This document shows, piece by piece, positions 16,475 through 36,386 of a stretch of 39,704 nucleotides of DNA. The stretch lies in IMG/VR virus record IMGVR_UViG_3300037258_000491, positions 1 to 39,704 of that record, one strand, 5' to 3'. The notes beneath the pieces are model-generated. The model was not told the DNA's origin and ran no database searches. It worked only from the letters and a program-made list of their open reading frames with translations. Each line of letters opens with the position of its first letter. The first letter of the stretch is position 1. Source of the stretch: a virus. Made by a program: the position numbers and the translations under genes.

Positions 16475-19117
16475 TCATCCGGACGCGTAAATACCGTAAC
16501 TGTCAAACCAGCCGGTGGTCCCGGAGGTGTCGTACTGGGTGACCTCGTAAATTGTCGCGGTCATCGCCCCGGTCCCGGTCAGCGTGCATGTCCAGGCGGG
16601 CAGTGAGTCGCTGCCCGTGGCTACCAGGTAATAGGCGGCTACGTACGCACGCGGCGCGGACGGGGTGCTGCCTTCCCCCCAGATCAGCGCCCAGCCGGAC
16701 GGCGCCCCTGGAGCGGTCACCGAAGTCGTTGCGGCTGCGGTAACCACAGCGATGAGCAGGTCGCCGGCGGTGTCATTCTGGCCAGTACCAAAAACGGGCG
16801 TGACCGAGCCGGACGTCGCCCGGGTCAAGGTAGGCGTACCAACGTAGCTAAGCGGCGGGATGACGTTTACCGTGCCCGCGACGGCGAGTAGCTCCAGCGC
16901 GACGGAGCCGGTGGAGGTAGTGGGGCTGCCCGTAGTTGAGCTAACAATGCCTGTAATTGCAAGGGGAGCCAGCGCAACCGAACCCGTCGAGGTAACACCC
17001 GCTACCCCGATATTCGTCACGTACGAGGTCCCGGCGGTATCACTGCCGTAATCACCTGCGTACACCGCAACCGTGGCGCCGTTGACCGAGAATGCGTACG
17101 TTTTTGACCACAGTGACGTCCAGGTAGTCCCGGTCGGGCTCGTCTCGAAGAACAGCGTGCCGGCCGATTCGCGGATACGCCACCAGGCATGATTCGTCGC
17201 GTTGTAGGTTACCGTCGGGCTGTTGGTTGTCGTGCCGTTCTGGTAGAGCAGCGCGTACATCGACCCGCCGGTGTAACCGATCTCTGCAGCGTAAGTACTA
17301 CCAGTCTCCGCTCCACTACCAAGAAAGACCTGCAGCGTCGTCTGTGCGCTCGTTGCAATGTATGGCAGGAACTCTCCGGCTACGAAACCCGATTTCAAAT
17401 TGTAAGTGTAGGTCGATATAAGAGCAGCATCGTAATTTACATCACACGGGATGGAGCACTCACTGCCGGACACCGCAACCGCGCCGTAGCTCCACGCCCA
17501 AGTAGTTGCCAGGTCATCAGAATCGAAGCCGTCTGCTAGAGTGGCCACCGCTGCTGGATTAGTGCTGATATTAGTGAAATAGGACGTCCCTGTTGCCTGG
17601 GTAGTGTAGTTACCGGCGTACACTCCGATGTACAGCGCAGTTACGTTTATCGTGTACGCGGTTGACCAGAGGTTCGTCCAGGCAGCGCCGTCTGATGCGA
17701 CGTCGAAGTACAGGAAGCCAGTCTGCTCGCGGATACGCCACCAGGCATGCGTGTTCGCGTTGTAGGTGGTGAGCGGGCTCTGCGTGGTCGTTCCAGCTTG
17801 GTTCAACGTAGCAATCATGCTGCCGTCGGAGTACCCGAGCGTAATGCTGTTATTCGCGTCTAGGTACAGCTGAAGGCCCGTTTCCGAGTTCGCTGTCTGA
17901 TAGGGGAGGAACTGGCCATACGTGTAGCTGCCGGTCAGGTTGTACGTGCTAGTGGTAGACAGTCCGCTAGAGTAACTCGTGTCGCACTGAACGGAGCACC
18001 AGGCGTTATCGACGAGGAACGTTCCCTGACTGTTCGCCCAGTTGGCTGCCGTGTCATCTGAACCGAACGCATCAGTGAACGAGCCCGTCGTCCCGGCGCC
18101 GCTGCCACCAGTACCGCCATTGACGACTGAAGAAGTAGCGAATGGCCCAAGTGCAACTGACCCGTGGGTGATAACAGCGCCCGCAGCAGCTGAGGAAGCA
18201 GTACCACTAACTGCCTTCGGTCCGAGGGCTACCGACCCGGCCACCGTGATGTTAGCGCCCGTCGAGTTCGGGTCAGCCCCCGCGGGCGCCCAGATCCGTA
18301 CATAATCAACGAGCAAGCCTTCAAACGGCAGCGATGCCGCCGCCGGGGTGCCGCTGTTAGTCGCATCCATGTGGATCTGCAGGATGACGTACATCCCGCC
18401 GTTACTGTTGAAGTTCCACGGGCCGTTAGCGCCAGTCTGCGCCGAAGTGGTGCTAGAGTTAAGCACCCCGTCGATGTAAACGTTAATCGTATTTTCCAGG
18501 TAGTCCAGCCGGAAGACGTGGTAGTTGCCGTCCCCGACGTTGAACCCGCCTGACTCGGCGATCGGGGCACCGGTTGTGGCAACCCCGCCACCCCAGATCG
18601 TGGTGTTAGATGTACCAGGCAGCGGGTTAGCCGACCCGGAGTCACCGGCCTCTTCCATGTCAATCTCGGACCAGGTCGAATCGTACTGGCTACTTACCCC
18701 GATGAACCAGCAGGCGGTCCACAGGCCTTTCAACGGGTTAACCTTGACCTTGATCTCGCACGACTGATTAAGCTGTACCGCATACTTTGGCGTACCACCC
18801 AGATGCTGCGGGTCAGGACCGGCGGAAGTATCCACGTATCCAGTCGGCCACAACGTAGACGGCGCCCCGTCAGTGCCTTTCTTGCCAACAGTGATACACA
18901 GGTTGCTGGCGCCGTCCTGAAACAAGTTGCTGACCGTACCGGGGTAGTAAGCCAGCTCGGCACTGCCGTTAAACGCGCTGCCAGCTACCCCGGTCGGAAT
19001 CACCCAGATAGCAGTGCTCGGCAGCGTGTTGGCAATGCCGCTGCTGCCCGAGTGCACGGTTCCACTAGAGTCAACCCAGGTGCCGCCGTTGAAGTCGTCG
19101 TTGAGGATGTATGCCAT
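16475..19117 (-). CDS. Tail protein with GH16-like glucanase domain
   Basis: The protein has 880 residues. Residues about 1-280 form a concanavalin-like domain of the GH16 type. It has the catalytic-spacing motif EIDMEE (E151, D153, E156) and a later GNYHVFRLDYLENTINVYID strand pair. GH16 enzymes cut beta-1,3/1,4-glucans and galactans, so the virion may degrade a surface polymer. After this come two homologous beta modules (about 335-530 and 535-710), each with the HAWWRIRE motif, and four TGSVALGP-like linkers. The C-terminal part (about 770-880) is another beta domain. The catalytic identity is by motif only. Confidence 0.75.
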   Translation of the reverse strand: MAYILNDDFNGGTWVDSSGTVHSGSSGIANTLPSTAIWVIPTGVAGSAFNGSAELAYYPGTVSNLFQDGASNLCITVGKKGTDGAPSTLWPTGYVDTSAGPDPQHLGGTPKYAVQLNQSCEIKVKVNPLKGLWTACWFIGVSSQYDSTWSEIDMEEAGDSGSANPLPGTSNTTIWGGGVATTGAPIAESGGFNVGDGNYHVFRLDYLENTINVYIDGVLNSSTTSAQTGANGPWNFNSNGGMYVILQIHMDATNSGTPAAASLPFEGLLVDYVRIWAPAGADPNSTGANITVAGSVALGPKAVSGTASSAAAGAVITHGSVALGPFATSSVVNGGTGGSGAGTTGSFTDAFGSDDTAANWANSQGTFLVDNAWCSVQCDTSYSSGLSTTSTYNLTGSYTYGQFLPYQTANSETGLQLYLDANNSITLGYSDGSMIATLNQAGTTTQSPLTTYNANTHAWWRIREQTGFLYFDVASDGAAWTNLWSTAYTINVTALYIGVYAGNYTTQATGTSYFTNISTNPAAVATLADGFDSDDLATTWAWSYGAVAVSGSECSIPCDVNYDAALISTYTYNLKSGFVAGEFLPYIATSAQTTLQVFLGSGAETGSTYAAEIGYTGGSMYALLYQNGTTTNSPTVTYNATNHAWWRIRESAGTLFFETSPTGTTWTSLWSKTYAFSVNGATVAVYAGDYGSDTAGTSYVTNIGVAGVTSTGSVALAPLAITGIVSSTTGSPTTSTGSVALELLAVAGTVNVIPPLSYVGTPTLTRATSGSVTPVFGTGQNDTAGDLLIAVVTAAATTSVTAPGAPSGWALIWGEGSTPSAPRAYVAAYYLVATGSDSLPAWTCTLTGTGAMTATIYEVTQYDTSGTTGWFDSYGIYASG

Positions 19118-22100
19118 CAGGGGCCGAGCACCTTCTGCAGGCCGCCGTTGATCCGGATGAACTGCTTCAGCGCGCTGAACACGGCCTTGTCCGCGCCCGC
19201 TGCATTGGCGTCGAAACTGAGCACTACCTGAACTCCGCCTACCTGCTGAGACTGCAGCTGCGCTGTTGCGCCCGCAGTACTAACATGCGCGCCGCCCGGC
19301 AGCTTGACCAGCTCCCGGCCGTACTCGCCAAGCATCGCCCAGCCCGCGGAAACCGCTCCACCCGTTGCGTAACCGTGCCCGGACCCGAGGCCGTTACCGT
19401 TAGACATCAGCGTCGGGCCATAGGTCGCCTTGGCGTAATTAATAGCCGCGGCTACGTTAGCAAGCGGGTCGTAAATGTTGCTTGAAGTACCTGGTTCATG
19501 GTACGCGGAGAACGTGGAACCAATAACCTGAAGAAGTCCCCGAGACGGATCACCGGCGGCGGCGTTGCTGTCCCAGTTATTGATCGCATTTGGATTGCCG
19601 CCCGACTCTGTAGAAATCTGGTACAGAACCTGATTGGCGAGACTTAGTGGAAGGCCATCCATCTTAAGCGCTTGATCAACGATGCTCGTCCACTGGGAAA
19701 CTCCGGCGCTCGCGTTGTATTTTACGTTAGTACCGGCCGAAGCGGCCTTGCTGGCGCCGCCCTTGACCGCGTTTATGATCGCGTCCCAAGCTGCTTTCAC
19801 GGCGGCATTGACAATATGACCGGGAGCGGAGAGCACCATCTGGGCCATCATCCCGGTAGAATTATCTGCACCCTTGTTCCCGAGCAGTGCACCGATCGCG
19901 TTCGCGAGGGCAACCGAGTTACCGCTGGCGAGGGCCGCCGCGATCTTCCCACCGCTGTCGATCTTCCCGATAATTCCGGTGACAAAGCTGCCGATATCAC
20001 CAAGGCCGTGCGAGATTGCCCCAACAGCCGCCTTGCCCGCGCCCACGATGTCACCGAGCACACCACCACCTGGAATGCCGCCCGCTGCGTACCCTGGCAC
20101 ACCCAACGCAGCGAACGCGGGCGCGAGCACCCGGCTGTGCGCAGCGCTGACTACCGTCTCACCCTTAGAGATCCGAGCAAGAACATCATCCGAGGTAGAA
20201 CCCGTCCCCGCGGTAACCAGGCCGCCCGCAGCTAGTGCAGCTACCTGACCGAGATGGGGACCACCAAGAGCACCGACCGTGTCATTCCACAAAGGAGCAA
20301 TACCATGATCGTAGACGGTATTGATAAGGAAGTTGACAGGAGCTTCAAAAATGCCCTCTAGCTTATTCCAATCCGTCTTAGCGTCGCTACTGATAGCAGC
20401 CCACTTATCGGACATCTCTTTACGAAGCGCGTCTATCTTACTGAGGACCCAACTGTAGGCCTTCTCGATAGGGTTGATAATGTAAGTGTAAACGAGGTTC
20501 CACGCAGCTAGCGCATCACTCTTGATAACATTCCAGTCCTGCTTCAACCCGGCAATAATAGCATTCCACACGGACTTTGAGGTATTTTCGATATCACCCC
20601 AGATTCCCTTGAAAAACCCGAATATCTGATTCCATACCGACTCAGCAACGGACTTGATCCCCGTCCACGCTGCGCCCGCGTCACTCTTCATGACCGTCCA
20701 GACCTGCAGCGCCAGGCCTTTCATATTATTCCAAATCTGTTCCGCTAGCGCGCTGATAGCATTCCATACCTGACCAAACAGAGCCTTAATCGCATTCCAG
20801 ACCTGAGACGCCGCTGTCTTAATGGCATTCCAGGCCGCCGTCCAGTTGCCGGTTAGGAGGTCAGCAAACACCTTAAAGAGAGCTACAATGACATCCCAGG
20901 CCACCTTTAGGATAGCAGCAATAGTATCCCAAGCAATCTTAGCCGCCGCAGAAATAGCATCCCAAGCTGTCTTTACGACAGCAACCATGATATCAAAATC
21001 TAGCTTCACCTGGTTACCGATAACAGTAAGTGCACTCTTCACCGGCGTACTCAAGGAGTCAAAAGCGTTCTTAATATAATCAACCGCGTCCGTGATTACA
21101 CCCTTGATATCAGACCAGATCTTCTGCCAGTTAGCAGCAAGAAGTAGGATAGCTGCAATAAGGACAGGAATAGGATCGGTAATAGCTAGCACTGCCGCAG
21201 CGATTCCGATAAGTACCATCGGGGGTACCTTGCTAATAAAATTGGTAAAACCAGTAACGATACCAACAATCGCGTTGACGACCCCGGGCTTAGTAATCGC
21301 CGTAACGATGGAAGTAAGCCCATCAGCAAGCTGAACAAGCAGCGCGGGCGCTACCTTAGCAATCATAGTTGCTAGCTGAGTAACCAAACCGGTAAGTGCA
21401 TTGATCATCCCCGGACTGAGAATCGCTTCAGCCATCTTGAGGAACGCATTGGATACCTGCGGGAGCACCTGGATGATAGCACCGAGAATCGATGTAGCTA
21501 GCTTAGCCAACGGCGGTAGCAGTTGCTCGATCCCCTGGGACAATGCACCCGTGATAACGGCCGCAAACTTGCCAATCAAGCTGACAATCTGGGGCAAGAT
21601 TGGAGCTAGATCTCCCGCCAAAGTAGAAACTATTTCAGTAAGTGTGTTAATCATGCCAGGACTGAGGATCGCCTGCGCCATTTTGAGGAACGCATTGGAT
21701 ACCTGCGGGAGTACCTGACCTATTGCACCAAGAATCGATGTAGCTAGCTTAGTCAATGGCGGTAGCAGCTGCCCGATCCCCTGAATCAGCGCACCGGTAA
21801 TGATGGCCGCAAACCTGCCAACCAAATCCACAATCGGCGGCAAGATCGGGACCAGATCCTCCGCCAAGGTAGAGACCACCTTACCCAGAGGTCCCGCCAG
21901 GTTCTCCAATGCATTGCCGATATCCGCAAACGCCCCGCTGTTCTCCAGTGTAGTGAACACCGTACCGAACGCTTTGGCAAGATCGTTCAGCCCTGGAGCT
22001 GCGCTCTTAATAACAGTACCTAGTGACTGGAAGACGCTCACCAGGTCTGATAGCACCGCGCCCGCGAAGCTAGCAATTACTTTGCCGATTGTAATGAACA

Positions 22101-23400
22101 CAGGTAGCAGCGACTCAACTGCTCCGGCTAGCGTGACAAACACCGGAGCCAGAGCGCCGGCGAAGATGTCCGCCAGTTTTCCTATAATCGGGAACAACGC
22201 ACTCAACACGTCCCCGAGTGCCTTAAAAATAGAGCTAGAAGCTGCGATTACCGGTGCGAAACCACTGAGCATCCCGCCGACATCTTTACCTAGATCGCCC
22301 AGCACGCCCGCCAGTGCATCAAATGCCGGTGAGGCGGCCTTCAGCAGCGACAGCAGCCCGGGGAGCAATCCACTAACCAAGCCTTCAATGCCCTTGAGCA
22401 GCGGCTGCAGCAGCGGTGCAGCAGCACCAAATACCTGGCCTAGCTCCAGCCCAATCGACTTAACGAAAACACCCAGCTGGCTGAACGCTTGTTCAACCGG
22501 CTTAACCAGCGGGAGGGCCGCCTTTGCGACTGTACCCTCAATGCCACTCCACGTGGCGGACATATTAGCCGCAAATTTCTTATTAGTACCTATCAGTATA
22601 GCGATGCCACCACCAAGCACGCCTAGCCCGGCGCCAACAGCGGCAATAGCAGGCAGCGCACCAAGCAAAGAAGCACCGAGCCCGGTCACCGTGGCCATCG
22701 CACCAGAAACCCCACCGATACCCGGTAGCGCTCCGCCCGCAATGCCGCTTGCGTCCTTAGCCAGCGCGCTACCTGAGCTACTCCCGCTTGAGCTACTACT
22801 GCTCTTGCTGCTTCCGCCCAGGCTGGGCAGGCTGAATGAGCTAAACGCGCTCTTAACCGCGCTGAGGAACCCCTTGGAGTATGAGGTACCGACGTTTGTC
22901 CCGGCCTTCTGCGCGTTGGCCGTTGCAGCGCCCGTTCCCGACCCGGACAACAGCCCGCCGATCGTCGAGTTGGCCTGACTACTCGCCTTGCTCAGGCTGT
23001 TGTTCAGTCCCGAGGCAAGACCCTGGCCGACCGCGGTACCCTGCTGGGAGGCCGACTGAACCACCGTCGAGCCGGCCGAGCCGAACAGCTTCTGCCCGCC
23101 GGACGTGCCGAACAGCCCGGACAGCAGACCCGAGCCCATGTTCTGCTGGAACTTCTGCAGCAGACCGCGGGAGAAGCCCTGGCCCGCTTGTTGCCCAGCA
23201 GTCTGTGCCGTTGAAGTAACGGACGAGCTTTTACCGCCAAACAGCGCCCCGGTGACACCGCTGCCCATCGACTTATTGAACCCAGAGTTAAAGCCCTGCC
23301 CCGCTGCCTGCCCTGATTTAGTTGCCTGGGTAGCGATGGCGTTTAGTGCAGAAGTGGCGGCGTTTTTGACAGTTACAGTGATCGTTACGGTGTTGGCCAT
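19117..23400 (-). CDS. Tail tape measure protein with lytic transglycosylase domain
   Basis: The protein has 1,427 residues. It sets tail length and fits a siphovirus tail. The N-terminal half is low-complexity (Ser/Gly/Gln) and helical. The middle holds long amphipathic repeats, including a tandem duplication of 82 residues. Residues about 800-1010 are a Trp-rich series (VWNAIK, IWNNMK, AWTGIK) typical of tape measures. Near residue 1260 ISTESGGNPNAIN and GLLQVIGSTFSAY match the soluble lytic transglycosylase fold, with the Glu of TES the likely catalytic acid. That domain would cut peptidoglycan during DNA entry. The ATG at 23400 lies inside the end of the frameshifted chaperone. Confidence 0.95.
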   Translation of the reverse strand: MANTVTITVTVKNAATSALNAIATQATKSGQAAGQGFNSGFNKSMGSGVTGALFGGKSSSVTSTAQTAGQQAGQGFSRGLLQKFQQNMGSGLLSGLFGTSGGQKLFGSAGSTVVQSASQQGTAVGQGLASGLNNSLSKASSQANSTIGGLLSGSGTGAATANAQKAGTNVGTSYSKGFLSAVKSAFSSFSLPSLGGSSKSSSSSSGSSSGSALAKDASGIAGGALPGIGGVSGAMATVTGLGASLLGALPAIAAVGAGLGVLGGGIAILIGTNKKFAANMSATWSGIEGTVAKAALPLVKPVEQAFSQLGVFVKSIGLELGQVFGAAAPLLQPLLKGIEGLVSGLLPGLLSLLKAASPAFDALAGVLGDLGKDVGGMLSGFAPVIAASSSIFKALGDVLSALFPIIGKLADIFAGALAPVFVTLAGAVESLLPVFITIGKVIASFAGAVLSDLVSVFQSLGTVIKSAAPGLNDLAKAFGTVFTTLENSGAFADIGNALENLAGPLGKVVSTLAEDLVPILPPIVDLVGRFAAIITGALIQGIGQLLPPLTKLATSILGAIGQVLPQVSNAFLKMAQAILSPGMINTLTEIVSTLAGDLAPILPQIVSLIGKFAAVITGALSQGIEQLLPPLAKLATSILGAIIQVLPQVSNAFLKMAEAILSPGMINALTGLVTQLATMIAKVAPALLVQLADGLTSIVTAITKPGVVNAIVGIVTGFTNFISKVPPMVLIGIAAAVLAITDPIPVLIAAILLLAANWQKIWSDIKGVITDAVDYIKNAFDSLSTPVKSALTVIGNQVKLDFDIMVAVVKTAWDAISAAAKIAWDTIAAILKVAWDVIVALFKVFADLLTGNWTAAWNAIKTAASQVWNAIKALFGQVWNAISALAEQIWNNMKGLALQVWTVMKSDAGAAWTGIKSVAESVWNQIFGFFKGIWGDIENTSKSVWNAIIAGLKQDWNVIKSDALAAWNLVYTYIINPIEKAYSWVLSKIDALRKEMSDKWAAISSDAKTDWNKLEGIFEAPVNFLINTVYDHGIAPLWNDTVGALGGPHLGQVAALAAGGLVTAGTGSTSDDVLARISKGETVVSAAHSRVLAPAFAALGVPGYAAGGIPGGGVLGDIVGAGKAAVGAISHGLGDIGSFVTGIIGKIDSGGKIAAALASGNSVALANAIGALLGNKGADNSTGMMAQMVLSAPGHIVNAAVKAAWDAIINAVKGGASKAASAGTNVKYNASAGVSQWTSIVDQALKMDGLPLSLANQVLYQISTESGGNPNAINNWDSNAAAGDPSRGLLQVIGSTFSAYHEPGTSSNIYDPLANVAAAINYAKATYGPTLMSNGNGLGSGHGYATGGAVSAGWAMLGEYGRELVKLPGGAHVSTAGATAQLQSQQVGGVQVVLSFDANAAGADKAVFSALKQFIRINGGLQKVLGP
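21399..21890 (-). repeat. Intragenic tandem duplication in the tape measure gene
   Basis: Two copies of a 246-base (82-codon) unit lie head to tail, beginning near 21399 and 21645. Stretches such as GGAACGCATTGGATACCTGC recur exactly. Divergence elsewhere is mostly synonymous, so the duplication is fairly recent and under selection. Each unit would add a fixed length to the tail. Confidence 0.8.
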
Positions 23401-30964: not shown

Positions 30965-31627
30965 TTACGGCTCCCTGTCCTTACGGCTTTTTCCTTGGGG
31001 ACAGGGCGCCACTGCTGTCCTTGCTAACTCAGCCATCCGGTGACGGCCTACTTGAGCTGCTCTCAGGTTGGCAGCGACGTACTCCATGCGATCGGGATCG
31101 TCGCGGAAGTAGCCGATACCTCGGTTGCACGGGTCGCATGCGATACCGCGAATGCACTTGCCGCACGCCGTGTTTCCGGAGCAGCAAGCGTGATCGTGGT
31201 CGACGTGCACCTTCCGCGGCTCGTCGAGGAGTAGCCGATCACCGCACAGGCAGCAGCACCCGTTCTGGTCATCGATGAGCTGCTGCCTGTACTCCGGAGT
31301 GATCCGGTACCGAGTCCAAAAGTGCATCCGGGAATGCTCTTCACTAGACCGCGGATGCTTCGCGTACCAGTCTTTGTTGAGCTGCGCTCGTCGTTCGCGC
31401 TCTTCCGGGGGCAGGTTGGCAATGCGTTCCCGGTCCCGCCGCCGCTTCTCGTCACCCGATGGACCGACCCTTGCGTCCCGCTGACGTTCGAGGAGGGCAG
31501 CGCGATTGCGCTGGTAGTGCTGACGGGATGCTTCCCGCTGGCGTGCATCGGCTGCCTCCTCCGAAAGCCTCGGCCTACTGTGCTTCTCACAAGTGCATCC
31601 TGGCTCACACTTACTGCGTCCTGGCAT
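30965..31627 (-). CDS. Endonuclease VII-type HNH homing endonuclease
   Basis: The protein has 220 residues. The C-terminal domain carries CCCLCGDRL, VHVDHDHACC and CGKCIRGIACDPCNRGIGYF, the zinc-binding and catalytic pattern of recombination endonuclease VII nucleases. The N-terminus has a CEPGCTCEKH cluster and a long Arg/Glu helix that could bind DNA. It sits between the major capsid gene and the next structural gene with no other function, which fits a free-standing homing nuclease. Confidence 0.85.
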   Translation of the reverse strand: MPGRSKCEPGCTCEKHSRPRLSEEAADARQREASRQHYQRNRAALLERQRDARVGPSGDEKRRRDRERIANLPPEERERRAQLNKDWYAKHPRSSEEHSRMHFWTRYRITPEYRQQLIDDQNGCCCLCGDRLLLDEPRKVHVDHDHACCSGNTACGKCIRGIACDPCNRGIGYFRDDPDRMEYVAANLRAAQVGRHRMAELARTAVAPCPQGKSRKDREP

Positions 31628-31647: not shown

Positions 31648-33105
31648 CTAGCGGCTTGCGAGCTGTACGAAGGCCGAGAGGGTGCTTGAGCTGCCGTTAT
31701 GAGGAGTCAACGGGCTCTGCAACCAAGGTCGACCATCGACCCTCTCGATTATACGGTAAGCCGTCTGATCGTTCTGGAAGGCGAACTGGTCCGAGGCCGC
31801 CACAGCCACCGACTGCCTATCCCCGATCAGGTAGTAGGACAGGTCGACGAAGTTAATGTCGCCGGTCGTGCCGAGCTGCGAGCACTTCTCGGTGAAGATC
31901 ACCGGGCGGCCAAGGATAGAGACGGGTGGTGCATCCATGCCACCGCTGTTGCCGTAACCGCCGATCCACACCGGGCCACCACCGGTACCCACCGACAGCG
32001 CCATGGTAGCCAGCTGCGGGAAGGTATCGATAGAACAGATCCACACCGCATTGGGCAGTGAGGTAGGCAGCATCCGGGCGTACATCTTAGTGATGTTCTC
32101 CCAGACGATCGTCTTCGTCGCTTGCCCGGACTCGATCGCGACCTGCACCGACGCCGGACTGTTAATGAAGCCCTGTGGGGTGCTGACACCCGTTTCGGTC
32201 ATGAACGCGACATCCTCGAACCAGGCGAGGCCCATCGGGATGCGTGTGTCGAACCAGCCAGAGAACGCCGGAGCGTCCGCGAGCAGCTCATTGGGCACCT
32301 TGAAGAACCCAGTGAGCTTCTTAGCGTCAAGCACGACGCGACCGAAGACCGCCTGCGACTCAGTCAGCGAGCTGGACTCCTCCGACCAGTAGAAGACCAC
32401 GCCGCCGAACAGCGAGGATACGTGACTGGTGTCGTCTACCGTCGGGATGGGCACGCGCAGTGTCGACATCGGGATAACGGTGGCCCGCGACCGGACGATC
32501 GACTGCTCTAGCGCGAGCTGCAGCAGCTCCGACCGCATGATCTCCGGAATCAGGAAGCCACCGGCTCCCGGGTCCTCCGAGCCGAACGAGTTCTGGAACG
32601 ACCGAACGTTCTCCAGCTTCTGGAGCAGCGTGCCGCGGTTCTTCATGCTCGACGGCCGGGCCTCTTCCCGGATCGCCTGGCAGTACTCGCCGATCGAGTT
32701 GAACCGGTCGTCCTCGCGGTAGGCATTCTCGAATACCGCCCCCGGCGCCAGCTTGTTGTACACGGCGCCGCGGCCCTTGCTCACCGCAGGTGTCCCGTCC
32801 TGGGACAGCTGAAGCTGCGGACGACCGCCATGGAACGACAGCGCGTTACCGATATCCAGCGCGGGCTTCTTGCCGCCGCCGTTATCACGGATCAGGTCGA
32901 ACAGCACCGACTGCACCTGAGTGCGCATGTCCTCGGTGGTGTCCGGGTTCTTCTTGACCGTCATCGCTGCGTACGCGTTGATGAAGTCCCGGCAGGTCCC
33001 GTTCTTTACCGCATCAGCACTGAAGTACTCGCGCAGCCGGACCGCGTCGGTCAGTAGTTCGCGCAGCCCCTCCGAGTCAGACGGGACCGTGAGCTTTGGC
33101 GCCAT
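31648..33105 (-). CDS. Major capsid protein, HK97 family
   Basis: The protein has 485 residues. The N-terminal ~130 residues form a charged segment that may act as an internal scaffold and be removed by the protease. The core has FLIPEIMRSELLQLALEQSI, VLDAKKLTGFFKVPNELLAD, LAWFEDVAFMTETG and a C-terminal LSYYLIGDRQSVAVAAS, all typical of the HK97 fold. The gene directly follows the protease with no gap, so translation is coupled. Confidence 0.9.
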   Translation of the reverse strand: MAPKLTVPSDSEGLRELLTDAVRLREYFSADAVKNGTCRDFINAYAAMTVKKNPDTTEDMRTQVQSVLFDLIRDNGGGKKPALDIGNALSFHGGRPQLQLSQDGTPAVSKGRGAVYNKLAPGAVFENAYREDDRFNSIGEYCQAIREEARPSSMKNRGTLLQKLENVRSFQNSFGSEDPGAGGFLIPEIMRSELLQLALEQSIVRSRATVIPMSTLRVPIPTVDDTSHVSSLFGGVVFYWSEESSSLTESQAVFGRVVLDAKKLTGFFKVPNELLADAPAFSGWFDTRIPMGLAWFEDVAFMTETGVSTPQGFINSPASVQVAIESGQATKTIVWENITKMYARMLPTSLPNAVWICSIDTFPQLATMALSVGTGGGPVWIGGYGNSGGMDAPPVSILGRPVIFTEKCSQLGTTGDINFVDLSYYLIGDRQSVAVAASDQFAFQNDQTAYRIIERVDGRPWLQSPLTPHNGSSSTLSAFVQLASR

Positions 33106-34986
33106 TTATCTAGCCCCTTCCAGGCCTAGGAGAAGGGCAGCGGACAGCAGCCCCGTGTCGATCTCGTCATCCGGCGCGTAGTCGCTGAACAACTTCATCG
33201 CCTTTTCGAGCGTCATCTGAGCTTCCGCCTTGTTAGTCAGGCCGCGTGCTTCAGACAACCGCGCCAGGGCATCACGTACCCCGAAAACGTTCGGTGGCGA
33301 AGATGGTGCGTACTTATACGGCAATGCCCAAGCCTGCGGCGTTGCCGGATCGCCGGGCTTACGACCAGCGCAGATACCCCGGTAGAACGCCGCCGGGTCA
33401 TCCGACTCCGCCGCAACAGCCATCGCCGCTTCCGGGTTCCAGGCGCTATCGTCGGTCTCCGGCGTCTTCAAGGTAAAGACAGAAGCTACGATCGCCGGGT
33501 CGATGACCGCGTCCGGGCTGTAATCCGGGTTAACCTGCTTCATCGCCTTCTGCAGGGTGGCCTTCGCCGCGTCCGCGTTAGTCAGGCCCTTCGTCTGCGG
33601 CAACCTAGCCAGCGCGTTCTTTACTCCAGCAGCATTAGGCGGCGATGACGGACTGTACTTATACGGCAGTGCCCAGGCGGCTTGCGTCGAGGCGTCACCT
33701 GTCTTACGGCCGGCGCAGATACCCGCGAAGAACTTAGCCGGATCATCCGAAGCTGTACCGGCTGCCCAGGCCTTACTGGCATTCCACGGCGAATTATCAA
33801 CGTCCGCATTGAGCACCGTAAGCGCAGAGCGGTCGTCCGCTGACTTCTTCTTGAACGGCTCAGCAGCACCCGGGAACGGCGCCTTCTTACCGTCATCAGC
33901 CGCGTTAGACGCCTCCGGGCACGGCGGGATGTCCTGCAGCTGGTTACCGTTCTCGTCCCAGTAGTCGTTGTCGGTATCACCATCGGGCGAAGAGTCATCG
34001 TCGCCATCGCCATCAGGATCGAACCGCACCGAGCCATCCGGGTCTTTCACCCAGCCGCTACCCATTTCCGTCGGGCCGTCGGAAGCATTCTCGACAAACC
34101 CGTTCAACTGCTTGTTGACCTGCCAGGTTTCAGTGAGGTCAACCTGATTCGTCGAGCTGCTACCGTCTCCCGCAGGCGCAGCCTGATGGTGACTATGTGC
34201 GGCATCACCATCATGATCATGCTCATGCGCGTGTACCGCATCACTGCCCTGTGACCCGTATGCCGGATGGCTATGTGCGTGCGTACCGGTCATCGATGCG
34301 TGATTGCCGTCTGCGTTGACAACGACAGTCGCGCCGTTAAGCACCAACCCGGCATAATGCGCGAAGACGGACATGTCCCAGTCGTCTTTGAGCGCTCCCT
34401 GTCCGTGAATAGCGTCCGCTAGCCCGGCATCCACGGCCTCCTGGTCGTTGTACCAAGTTTCGTTGCCCATCTGGGCCAGCCAGTACGCGACGGGCTTACC
34501 GGTACGCTCGGCATAAATAGAGGCGATGTCCTTGGTAACCCCGTCGAGGAGATCCGCGGTCTCACGCATATCACCAGCGTCACCGATCACCTGGCCGAAG
34601 CCGTTGTGGATCATCATCCGGGCACGCGGCGCGATCTGCAGCTTCCCGGGATCGGCAGCCTGGGCGATGAACGACGCAGCACTCGCGGCTAGCCCATCGA
34701 TAATGACACTGATGTCACCGCGCTGCTTCAACCTGTTGTAGATGGTCAGCCCATCGAAGACATCGCCGCCCGGTGAGTTGATGTGCATCTCAATCGGCCC
34801 GTTGATCGCCGAAATGTCATTCAGGAACTCGCCCGCGGGCACCCCGAACATGCCAACTTCATCGTAAATGCTTACAACAGTTGGCAATCCCACTGCTGAA
34901 TTTGCAATCGAATACCACTTCGGCAGCACACCCGTCAGGTTAGCTAGGCGCCGGGTGGACCGTAGTGGCCGCGCGCCGTGAGTCAT
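33106..34986 (-). CDS. ClpP-like prohead protease with His-rich and duplicated C-terminal domains
   Basis: The protein has 626 residues. Residues 1-210 form a ClpP-type serine protease with GLAASAASF (catalytic S102) and MMIHNGF (H127), which matures phage proheads. Residues about 224-270 are very His-rich (HAHSHP, HAHEHDHDGDAAHSHH), and 319-345 hold DPDGDGDDD and DGDTDND, a likely divalent-cation site. Residues about 398-492 and 513-605 are two copies of a 115-residue-period repeat with ICAGRKxGD, AWALPYKY, SPPN and LARL. Simple prohead proteases are 200-300 residues long, so the C-terminal half is an added module. Its ATG overlaps the portal stop by four bases. Confidence 0.85.
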   Translation of the reverse strand: MTHGARPLRSTRRLANLTGVLPKWYSIANSAVGLPTVVSIYDEVGMFGVPAGEFLNDISAINGPIEMHINSPGGDVFDGLTIYNRLKQRGDISVIIDGLAASAASFIAQAADPGKLQIAPRARMMIHNGFGQVIGDAGDMRETADLLDGVTKDIASIYAERTGKPVAYWLAQMGNETWYNDQEAVDAGLADAIHGQGALKDDWDMSVFAHYAGLVLNGATVVVNADGNHASMTGTHAHSHPAYGSQGSDAVHAHEHDHDGDAAHSHHQAAPAGDGSSSTNQVDLTETWQVNKQLNGFVENASDGPTEMGSGWVKDPDGSVRFDPDGDGDDDSSPDGDTDNDYWDENGNQLQDIPPCPEASNAADDGKKAPFPGAAEPFKKKSADDRSALTVLNADVDNSPWNASKAWAAGTASDDPAKFFAGICAGRKTGDASTQAAWALPYKYSPSSPPNAAGVKNALARLPQTKGLTNADAAKATLQKAMKQVNPDYSPDAVIDPAIVASVFTLKTPETDDSAWNPEAAMAVAAESDDPAAFYRGICAGRKPGDPATPQAWALPYKYAPSSPPNVFGVRDALARLSEARGLTNKAEAQMTLEKAMKLFSDYAPDDEIDTGLLSAALLLGLEGAR

Positions 34987-36386
34987 CCGCGCCTCGCTGT
35001 TTCGAAGGGAACGTAGCCATCGTTTAGAACACGACGTAGACGTGCTTCCATGGTAGTGCTATCGCTACCTGATGTAGCACTATCCGGTGCAGATTCCGCA
35101 GGGGTTGCCGGTGGAGCAGGCACCCACCCAGGCGGCAGCGCAGGCTGCTGAGTAGCCTTCTCGACGACCGCCATGTCCGGCAGGCCCACTGCTTCCAGCA
35201 CGTCATGTGGGTCGAACCCAGCGTTGATGAACGCATCACACGCCTGCGCCTTAACCAGCAACTCGGCGTTAGCAGCTTCTGCGTTCACCGGACTCGGGTC
35301 GTCATAGTCGAACTCAACAGAGTCATCACCGAACATCGGCAGAAACTTGAAGTTGAGCGTGTCCTTACGCCGGTCGAGTCGCGGAAGCTGCTGCCAGGTG
35401 CTGAAAGTTTCCTCAGCGGTTTGCGCATTCGCCCGGTTAACGTCCTCAACGGTACCAAGCAGCGACTTGTGCATCCGCCATGCTTCACGCAACTCGTCAC
35501 GGTTATTAAGCCGCAAGTTAGCGTAATCCATGTCCTTATTGGACTGGCCAGCGGCAACCCACTGCGCGCCATTTTCCAGAATACCAACTCGCCCAGCGCG
35601 GGCTACACCTTGGTGTGATTCCCGCCAGCGATTGGTGAACTCGTCGAAATCGCGATCCGTGAAACTCACACCAGACGGTAGCTGAATGACACCACCCGGA
35701 TCAGAGCCGTTAACGAATAGATTACGCTGATACTCCGTCGCGTACCGCTGCTGCTGAATGTTCGGCATAATCGACGCGACGGGACCTATCCCGCGGAACG
35801 GATCTTCCGGGTCCGGCGTCTTCTCCTGGATAACTTCATCCATCTGCAGTGGAATCTGCGAACCATCTGGCCCGGTATACATCCAGCCAATTTGAAACTT
35901 ATCTGGATCAGTCACCGGTTCCATCCGACCGGGCCGCACGTACCACAGCGACGTCGGCATGTTGAAAGACGACTCCCGGTTCACTACCCAAAATGTCTCA
36001 CCAGTCAACTCAAGATGCTGATTACATCCTTCGCGGAACTCGTACCCGCTCATAAACGTATTAGGAGAATTCCACAATGACAGCGCCGCGTTACTGATTA
36101 CCTCAGTACGCTGATCGTCACCAGTATCCGTCGTCGCATACCGTCGTCGAGCGTCCTTGGGCTGCTTCTTGTACAACCGCCAGCGCGGCCCTGCGCATGA
36201 AGAGGCAAGGAGTGAGACAATGGCATAAACCGTCGGGGACATTCCGTAAGCGCGAAGTTGCGCATCCCGGTCTGAGCGACCAGTACCGAGATTGAATTGA
36301 TGCCCGGTGCTATTGTAACGGGATGCCAGCGGGATTGGCGGTCCGCTCACCGCAACGTTACGAAGACGCCTGAGCCCTGATTTCAC
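34983..36386 (-). CDS. Portal protein, HK97 family
   Basis: The protein has 467 residues from a GTG at 36386 that overlaps the upstream stop. The core segments SPTVYAIVSLLASSCAGPRW, LTGETFWVVNRES, GIGPVASIMPNIQQQRYATEYQ and NAEELLVKAQ-like helices are typical of siphovirus portals. The portal forms the DNA gate of the head and the docking ring for terminase and connector. A disordered Pro/Ala/Ser-rich tail (about 405-445) follows. Confidence 0.9.
   Translation of the reverse strand: MKSGLRRLRNVAVSGPPIPLASRYNSTGHQFNLGTGRSDRDAQLRAYGMSPTVYAIVSLLASSCAGPRWRLYKKQPKDARRRYATTDTGDDQRTEVISNAALSLWNSPNTFMSGYEFREGCNQHLELTGETFWVVNRESSFNMPTSLWYVRPGRMEPVTDPDKFQIGWMYTGPDGSQIPLQMDEVIQEKTPDPEDPFRGIGPVASIMPNIQQQRYATEYQRNLFVNGSDPGGVIQLPSGVSFTDRDFDEFTNRWRESHQGVARAGRVGILENGAQWVAAGQSNKDMDYANLRLNNRDELREAWRMHKSLLGTVEDVNRANAQTAEETFSTWQQLPRLDRRKDTLNFKFLPMFGDDSVEFDYDDPSPVNAEAANAELLVKAQACDAFINAGFDPHDVLEAVGLPDMAVVEKATQQPALPPGWVPAPPATPAESAPDSATSGSDSTTMEARLRRVLNDGYVPFETARRG

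Follow-up and report, generated by a model that had tools for sequence, protein, structure and literature searches.

Conserved, exchangeable modules in the tail of a predicted ClpP-type phage head maturation protease

The window analysed here, i.e. the complete 39,704 nucleotides of metagenomic IMG/VR virus record IMGVR_UViG_3300037258_000491, contains a gene in which a predicted head maturation protease is followed by a long composite tail. Judging from sequence comparison, this tail is made of conserved, old and exchangeable modules that are tied to head maturation proteases from several families of peptidases. It probably assists in positioning the protease, or in regulating it, while the head is being built.

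Results

Protease gene and its neighbourhood

The gene (33106..34986, minus strand) is a single ORF with ATG start. It encodes 626 aa: a head maturation protease of ClpP type, extended at its C-terminus by a modular tail. Both in the window and in relatives, it is located between the genes for portal protein and major capsid protein (MCP). The portal gene lies immediately 5' (34983..36386, minus strand; Pfam PF04860, E=3e-48) and its stop is overlapped by the protease start by 4 bases. The MCP gene lies immediately 3' (31648..33105, minus strand; 485 aa; Pfam PF05065 at residues 182-465, E=3.5e-45), its start being directly preceded by the protease stop codon.

The ClpP-type domain occupies residues 23-205 (34372..34920, minus strand), where Pfam PF00574 and PHROG 2976, 133 and 94 match. 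Specifically, Pfam CLP_protease is found at residues 62-194 (E=2e-31) and PHROG 2976, one of three matching PHROG head maturation protease families, at residues 23-201 (E=7.5e-61). Ser102 and His127 are invariant across 50 relatives; the third catalytic residue lies within an ETW motif, its identity being judged by eye. These matches, the conserved serine and histidine and the location between portal and MCP uphold the prohead protease call made in the first-pass annotation, and the window protein is, as far as sequence can tell, a phage head maturation protease of ClpP (S14) type. Behind the ClpP-like domain, the same annotation had described a His stretch, an acidic segment and a duplicated domain, all of which were recovered in this ORF. 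The added part had also been put at more than twice the protease size; residues 215-626 (412 aa) amount to about twice the protease domain.

The window terminase is closest to those of Streptomyces and Thermobifida phages. By protease domain, the nearest isolate is Streptomyces phage Dagobah (MT711977; 45.6% identity), whose terminase is also similar and which possesses the same block of portal, ClpP protease and MCP. Unlike the window protein, Dagobah protease has 262 aa and a plain linker tail with none of the LPYK, LPHH and SYPI modules described below. The HK97/D3 capsid set (PMC12749128, PMC10275583) likewise displays portal-protease-MCP order and N-terminal extension of MCP, but its protease is short (32 kDa), whereas the ClpP-type protease described here carries a modular tail of 420 residues.

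Elsewhere in the window, an endonuclease VII gene (30965-31627, minus strand; Pfam E=1.3e-16) is found directly 3' of the MCP gene, and the region 19117-23400 (minus strand) encodes a likely tape measure protein of 1427 aa with transglycosylase SLT domain. In the record of Thermobifida phage P1312 (L381), strand calls look doubtful, since several genes, among them the one annotated as "portal", overlap longer ones on the opposite strand.

Duplicated LPYK domain

A C-terminal domain of ~95 residues, which we name LPYK, is present twice. Copy 1 comprises residues 397-490 (33517..33798, minus strand) with the succession ICAGRK...AWALPYKY...NALARL, copy 2 residues 512-604 (33175..33453, minus strand). 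Confirming the two-copy domain with ICAGRK and AWALPYKY that had been reported from the first reading, the copies share 57% identity over 106 aa (BLASTP E=3e-43). At DNA level, they are 63% identical with many synonymous differences; the duplication is therefore old and not an assembly duplicate. Its age is also indicated by about 10 relatives with tandem LPYK, since their second copies mostly cluster together in the tree (SH-aLRT 94). Among relatives, ICAG, LPYK and NALARL positions are strongly conserved.

Structure prediction of the tail, as suggested in the first-pass annotation, gave a divided picture: LPYK copies and the acidic segment are ordered, whereas a hairpin is modelled at low confidence for the His-rich stretch and disorder is predicted for the linkers. 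The LPYK tandem is predicted by AlphaFold2 as two folded domains, each a compact alpha2-beta2-alpha2 unit (helix-helix-strand-strand-helix-helix; pLDDT ~97 for both copies), with the ICAG and LPY signatures placed on the two strands.

LPYK copies of the window have no match in Pfam, PHROG and NCBIfam, and Foldseek search against PDB retrieved nothing (best E=2). PDB profiles of armadillo-repeat designs and thermonuclease were dismissed as chance matches, as no single stretch passed or E exceeded 0.02. Weak Pfam and PHROG matches that might have identified LPYK with a known domain came from single members, e.g. from Thermoanaerobacterium phage THSA-485A. One family, DUF6582 (PF20223), shows a faint likeness through the THSA-485A member (E=0.0076; 4e-4), which is below the curated cut-off even there, and the window protein itself gives no match to this family at E<=10. 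Among predicted viral structures (BFVD), the best matches are weak (E 4e-3 to 1e-2) and suggestive. Two of them resemble HATV-3 gp15 and THSA-485A Tsac_2860, identity being assigned by matching lengths (657 and 661 aa); the prohead protease of Halobacterium phage ChaoS9 stands further down the list.

His-rich and acidic segments

Between protease and LPYK, two segments of unusual composition are located. The His-rich motif (residues 227-270, THAHSHPAYGSQGSDAVHAHEHDHDGDAAHSHH; 34177..34308, minus strand) recurs in relatives and contains 10 His in a window of 36 residues, a density reached by none of 5000 shuffles of the protein. In the full-length AlphaFold2 model it appears as a beta hairpin of low confidence. 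It is followed by a poorly conserved, low-complexity linker (residues 271-306; 34069..34176, minus strand), predicted to be disordered through residue 300; pLDDT is <50 over 267-300, and tail linkers are disordered in the full-length model. The acidic segment (residues 307-358; 33913..34068, minus strand), separated by a second linker from the duplicated domains, has 13 Asp in 30 residues, a density that a single one of 5000 shuffles attained. Within this segment, DxDxDGxxD occurs once in exact form, at residues 323-331 (33994-34020). Thus both stretches, pointed out in the first reading, are denser than composition predicts. Mean occupancy of the acidic segment is 0.88 in 50 aligned relatives. 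When the whole collection was scanned, the His motif was found in 76 virus contigs/ORFs and the Asp motif in 80 loci/ORFs, nearly all of them of head-protease type; a few matches resembled portal or had no assignment.

The acidic segment is ordered in the AlphaFold2 model (pLDDT ~95 over 311-350), and a metal-bound loop would be expected to show up in such a model as just this kind of confident coil, which in itself is no evidence of binding. Both the pattern and the predicted order recall an EF-hand-like calcium loop, but no profile or structure search returned a match for the acidic segment. WD40 and other PDB matches to this segment were rejected as repeat artefacts, their scores being summed over repeats with no single stretch passing. 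Neither Pfam nor profile searches assigned the window protein to a metal-site family. Relatives have zinc ribbons of the double type (DZR; lowest E, 9e-11, in locus L041) in the same region of the tail. Metal binding by the tail is plausible, and the kind of motif found, comprising the His pattern and DxDxDGxxD loop of the window protein and the zinc ribbons of its relatives, suggests that metal dependence may be involved.

LPHH and SYPI modules

LPHH, a variant of LPYK, and SYPI, a third module, were named in this work as well. Profiles of LPYK and LPHH are homologous by hhalign with probability of 96% (E=5e-9). This figure was obtained with profiles lacking two loci common to both (97.7% with them included); 100 column shuffles gave <=8% and profiles of ClpP, MCP, portal and S78 <0.2%. 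All marks of an LPYK/LPHH family were found: the WDxxxA start, the LPYK/PHH signature, the NxxxVxxALARL helix and profile ancestry. One protease (locus L130) carries LPHH followed by LPYK.

The module is not restricted to ClpP-type enzymes. In ClpP (S14) proteases, LPYK or LPHH is C-terminal in most loci and N-terminal in several LPHH loci. In S78 proteases it is C-terminal in L041 and L017 and N-terminal in L048 and L127, and one S49 protease (L220) has an LPYK/LPHH module too. In four loci (L017, L041, L049, L065), protease, module and MCP are joined in one ORF. These fused ORFs contain S78 or ClpP protease and are 1038-1146 aa long where complete; that of L065 ends at the contig edge. In locus L212 (2870 onward, 632 aa), profiles of LPHH, ClpP and S78 match the same ORF, which may represent a double protease or a false match.

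Distant LPYK/LPHH versions are present in haloarchaeal HATV-3 (Haloarcula tailed virus 3) gp15, encoded two genes before its MCP, and in the THSA-485A head protein Tsac_2860. Both are head-operon proteins from just upstream of the capsid genes, and both are annotated as hypothetical; in contrast to the window protein, their protease parts differ or are unrecognised, that of THSA-485A being weakly S78-like. Besides its LPHH-type domain, HATV-3 gp15 (L156, 2924-4897) contains an Hva1_TUDOR domain and may be a head protease-scaffold protein.

SYPI, with the pattern GSYPI...DLxNAI...GR...HIxKRAxALG...IPxxW, has no Pfam match. It takes the place of LPYK in a close relative (L133, 3714-4994); further SYPI loci are L157, L158, L159 and L160. 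Several isolated phages have it in their capsid maturation proteases. For example, head proteases of Gordonia phage ChisanaKitsune (gp30) and Alicyclobacillus phage MMB025, which are of S78 and S78_2 type, bear SYPI as a small appended module that is not detectably homologous to LPYK. The idea that SYPI is a third homologous variant found no support (hhalign 0.14%). In Streptomyces phage KimJongPhill, SYPI is free-standing as an 87-residue gene beside the scaffold gene. SYPI was also observed in a GX15bay protein annotated as portal.

Occurrence in virus contigs

Fusion of LPYK to the protease, encoded between portal and MCP, was seen in about 100 IMG/VR contigs. A search with a single copy retrieved LPYK from 49 virus contigs, a profile search from 80 (154 passed in all). 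Loci were inspected with HMMs built in this work; since many of them are fragments or near-duplicates, these counts stand for contigs and not for independent events. In inspected loci, the order of portal, protease with LPYK and MCP is nearly constant. Absence of the fusion from close relatives, owing to assembly error, had been named in the first-pass annotation as an outcome that would speak against its reading. The opposite was found, and assembly error or chimera is excluded by the recurrence of the same fusion together with divergence of LPYK copies at DNA level.

To avoid counting in a set selected by the module, a second sample was fetched by the window MCP. Among 22 loci with visible protease, 13 have LPYK, 5 only LPHH, 1 SYPI and 3 none, the three module-free loci having more distant MCPs. 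In one locus of this set (L139), the module is in a separate frame adjoining the protease. The same was noticed more generally for L051, L121 and L139, near 1157-2472: the ClpP part and the Asp-LPYK part are in different frames of the contig, which may reflect frameshift, sequencing error or split gene.

Two scans of bacterial reference genomes, covering 84,980 species, revealed no LPYK relatives, and isolated phages yielded one distant match only.

Selection and exchange of modules

In close pairs, of which few are independent, dN/dS ranges from 0.07 to 0.28; by this measure, tail modules are under purifying selection. Signs of recombination between protease and module are seen as unequal dS in L042/L043 and as weak correlation of LPYK with ClpP (Mantel r=0.20). 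All-pairs identity is higher in the module than in the protease (0.68 vs 0.53), but this comparison was set aside because the set had been fetched by the module; dN/dS suggests that the protease is at least as constrained.

Discussion

Recurrence of the module, which is nearly always joined to a head maturation protease, strongly supports a role in head assembly. What this role consists of is best read, in our opinion, as that of a modular adaptor tethering or regulating the protease in the prohead, a proposal that we hold tentatively, at somewhat less than an even chance. Proheads contain from ~60 (HK97) to ~90 (D3) copies of protease beside several hundred copies of MCP (PMC12749128), and the need of heads for means of enclosing the protease was counted in its favour. 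So were the four ORFs joining protease, module and MCP, the prediction of two folded domains in the tail and the low dN/dS. In addition, the tail domain is retained on catalytic parts of different families, which suggests that all heads have its partner in common. The adaptor might bind a component of the assembling shell, such as the scaffold extension of MCP, the inner face of MCP or portal, and the protease would in this way be enclosed in the prohead and kept there in position. His and Asp parts may bind divalent metal, thereby stabilising or gating the tail, and the tail would presumably be cut or lost on maturation. Against the adaptor stands dispensability of the tail in Dagobah and in loci L152-L154, so protease capture must be possible without the module. 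Loose coupling of LPYK to ClpP, as seen in Mantel test and in L042/L043, might equally indicate that the module does something that has no bearing on the protease. A broader version of the proposal, which we consider rather doubtful, is that LPYK/LPHH represents a general prohead docking domain of bacterial phages and haloarchaeal tailed viruses, passed along with metal-binding mini-modules between unrelated head protease families. Such a domain would bring the protease to the immature shell and control its switching on and off, and would be retained even where the protease is replaced.

Other explanations have to be weighed against the same data. The tail could regulate the protease by sensing metal or binding nucleic acid, with His hairpin, DxDxDGxxD loop and zinc ribbons timing its activation. 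An exact DxDxDGxxD inside a segment predicted to be folded fits this idea, and so does the occupation of the same tail region by a conserved HxHxH pattern and by double zinc ribbons in relatives. We nevertheless find it unlikely, as many relatives that keep LPYK lack the His motif or zinc ribbons and some lack the Asp motif, and as the window protein matches no metal-site family, PDB matches of its Asp segment being artefactual. A slightly lower probability is given to an internal head or ejection protein, the second possibility raised in the first-pass annotation: LPYK would be delivered by the protease, cleaved off, retained in the virion and brought into the host with DNA. Proteins that are packaged in phage heads and injected are known (PMC5512222), the tail modules vary and are exchanged among phages as accessory effectors are, and cleavage would be easy in the long disordered linkers. 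In the tail, however, neither an enzymatic domain nor a known effector domain was detected, and a position N-terminal to S78 or ClpP, or between protease and MCP, is odd for an effector; among the copies found, none was seen outside head-operon proteins. Polyvalent proteins are recognised by several effector or enzyme domains (PMC5512222), whereas the protease is the sole enzyme domain identified here by Pfam and PHROG.

Fusion of protease and scaffold is an established arrangement. In lambda C/Nu3, the head protease has a long C-terminal part in one reading frame; translation from an internal start yields the scaffold as well, and lambda MCP has no scaffold extension. The window protein shares the long one-frame C-terminal part with this system but matches neither the internal start nor the extension-less MCP. 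The capsid domain of the window MCP starts near residue 182, which leaves an N-terminal extension of scaffold type, and in 84 loci with the module the median length of this extension is 166 aa, in the position of HK97-type scaffold. No start codon within residues 181-419 has a ribosome-site match of more than 4 bases, although this is a weak test, as the gene's own start also reaches only 4. Moreover, in the fusion ORFs a distinct stretch lies between the module and the capsid domain, and LPYK is compact and globular, not a long coiled coil. Easley and Rem711 combine short MCPs with long protease tails, and these tails may be of scaffold type. From the extension of MCP in relatives, the lack of a good internal start and the bare protease of Dagobah, we conclude that the tail of the window protein is accessory and probably not a scaffold, so that the scaffold suggestion of the first reading is disfavoured and a tail functioning as in lambda appears improbable. 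Even less credit is due to the notion that the modules are neutral hitch-hikers in a permissive linker, devoid of specific function. They are dispensable in some relatives and vary in copy number and order, but conservation of ICAG, LPYK and NALARL, purifying selection and repeated association with several protease families speak against neutrality.

If the tail is an adaptor, its significance concerns a step that is poorly understood outside a few model phages, namely how a limited number of proteases is enclosed and held inactive until shell assembly is finished. Since LPYK is without match in Pfam, PHROGs, NCBIfam and PDB, naming it would annotate "hypothetical" stretches in phage head genes. 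The occurrence of LPYK/LPHH on S14, S49 and S78 head proteases and in protease-MCP fusions points to a docking surface shared by proheads, and LPYK, with its about 95 residues, is a compact handle for finding it.
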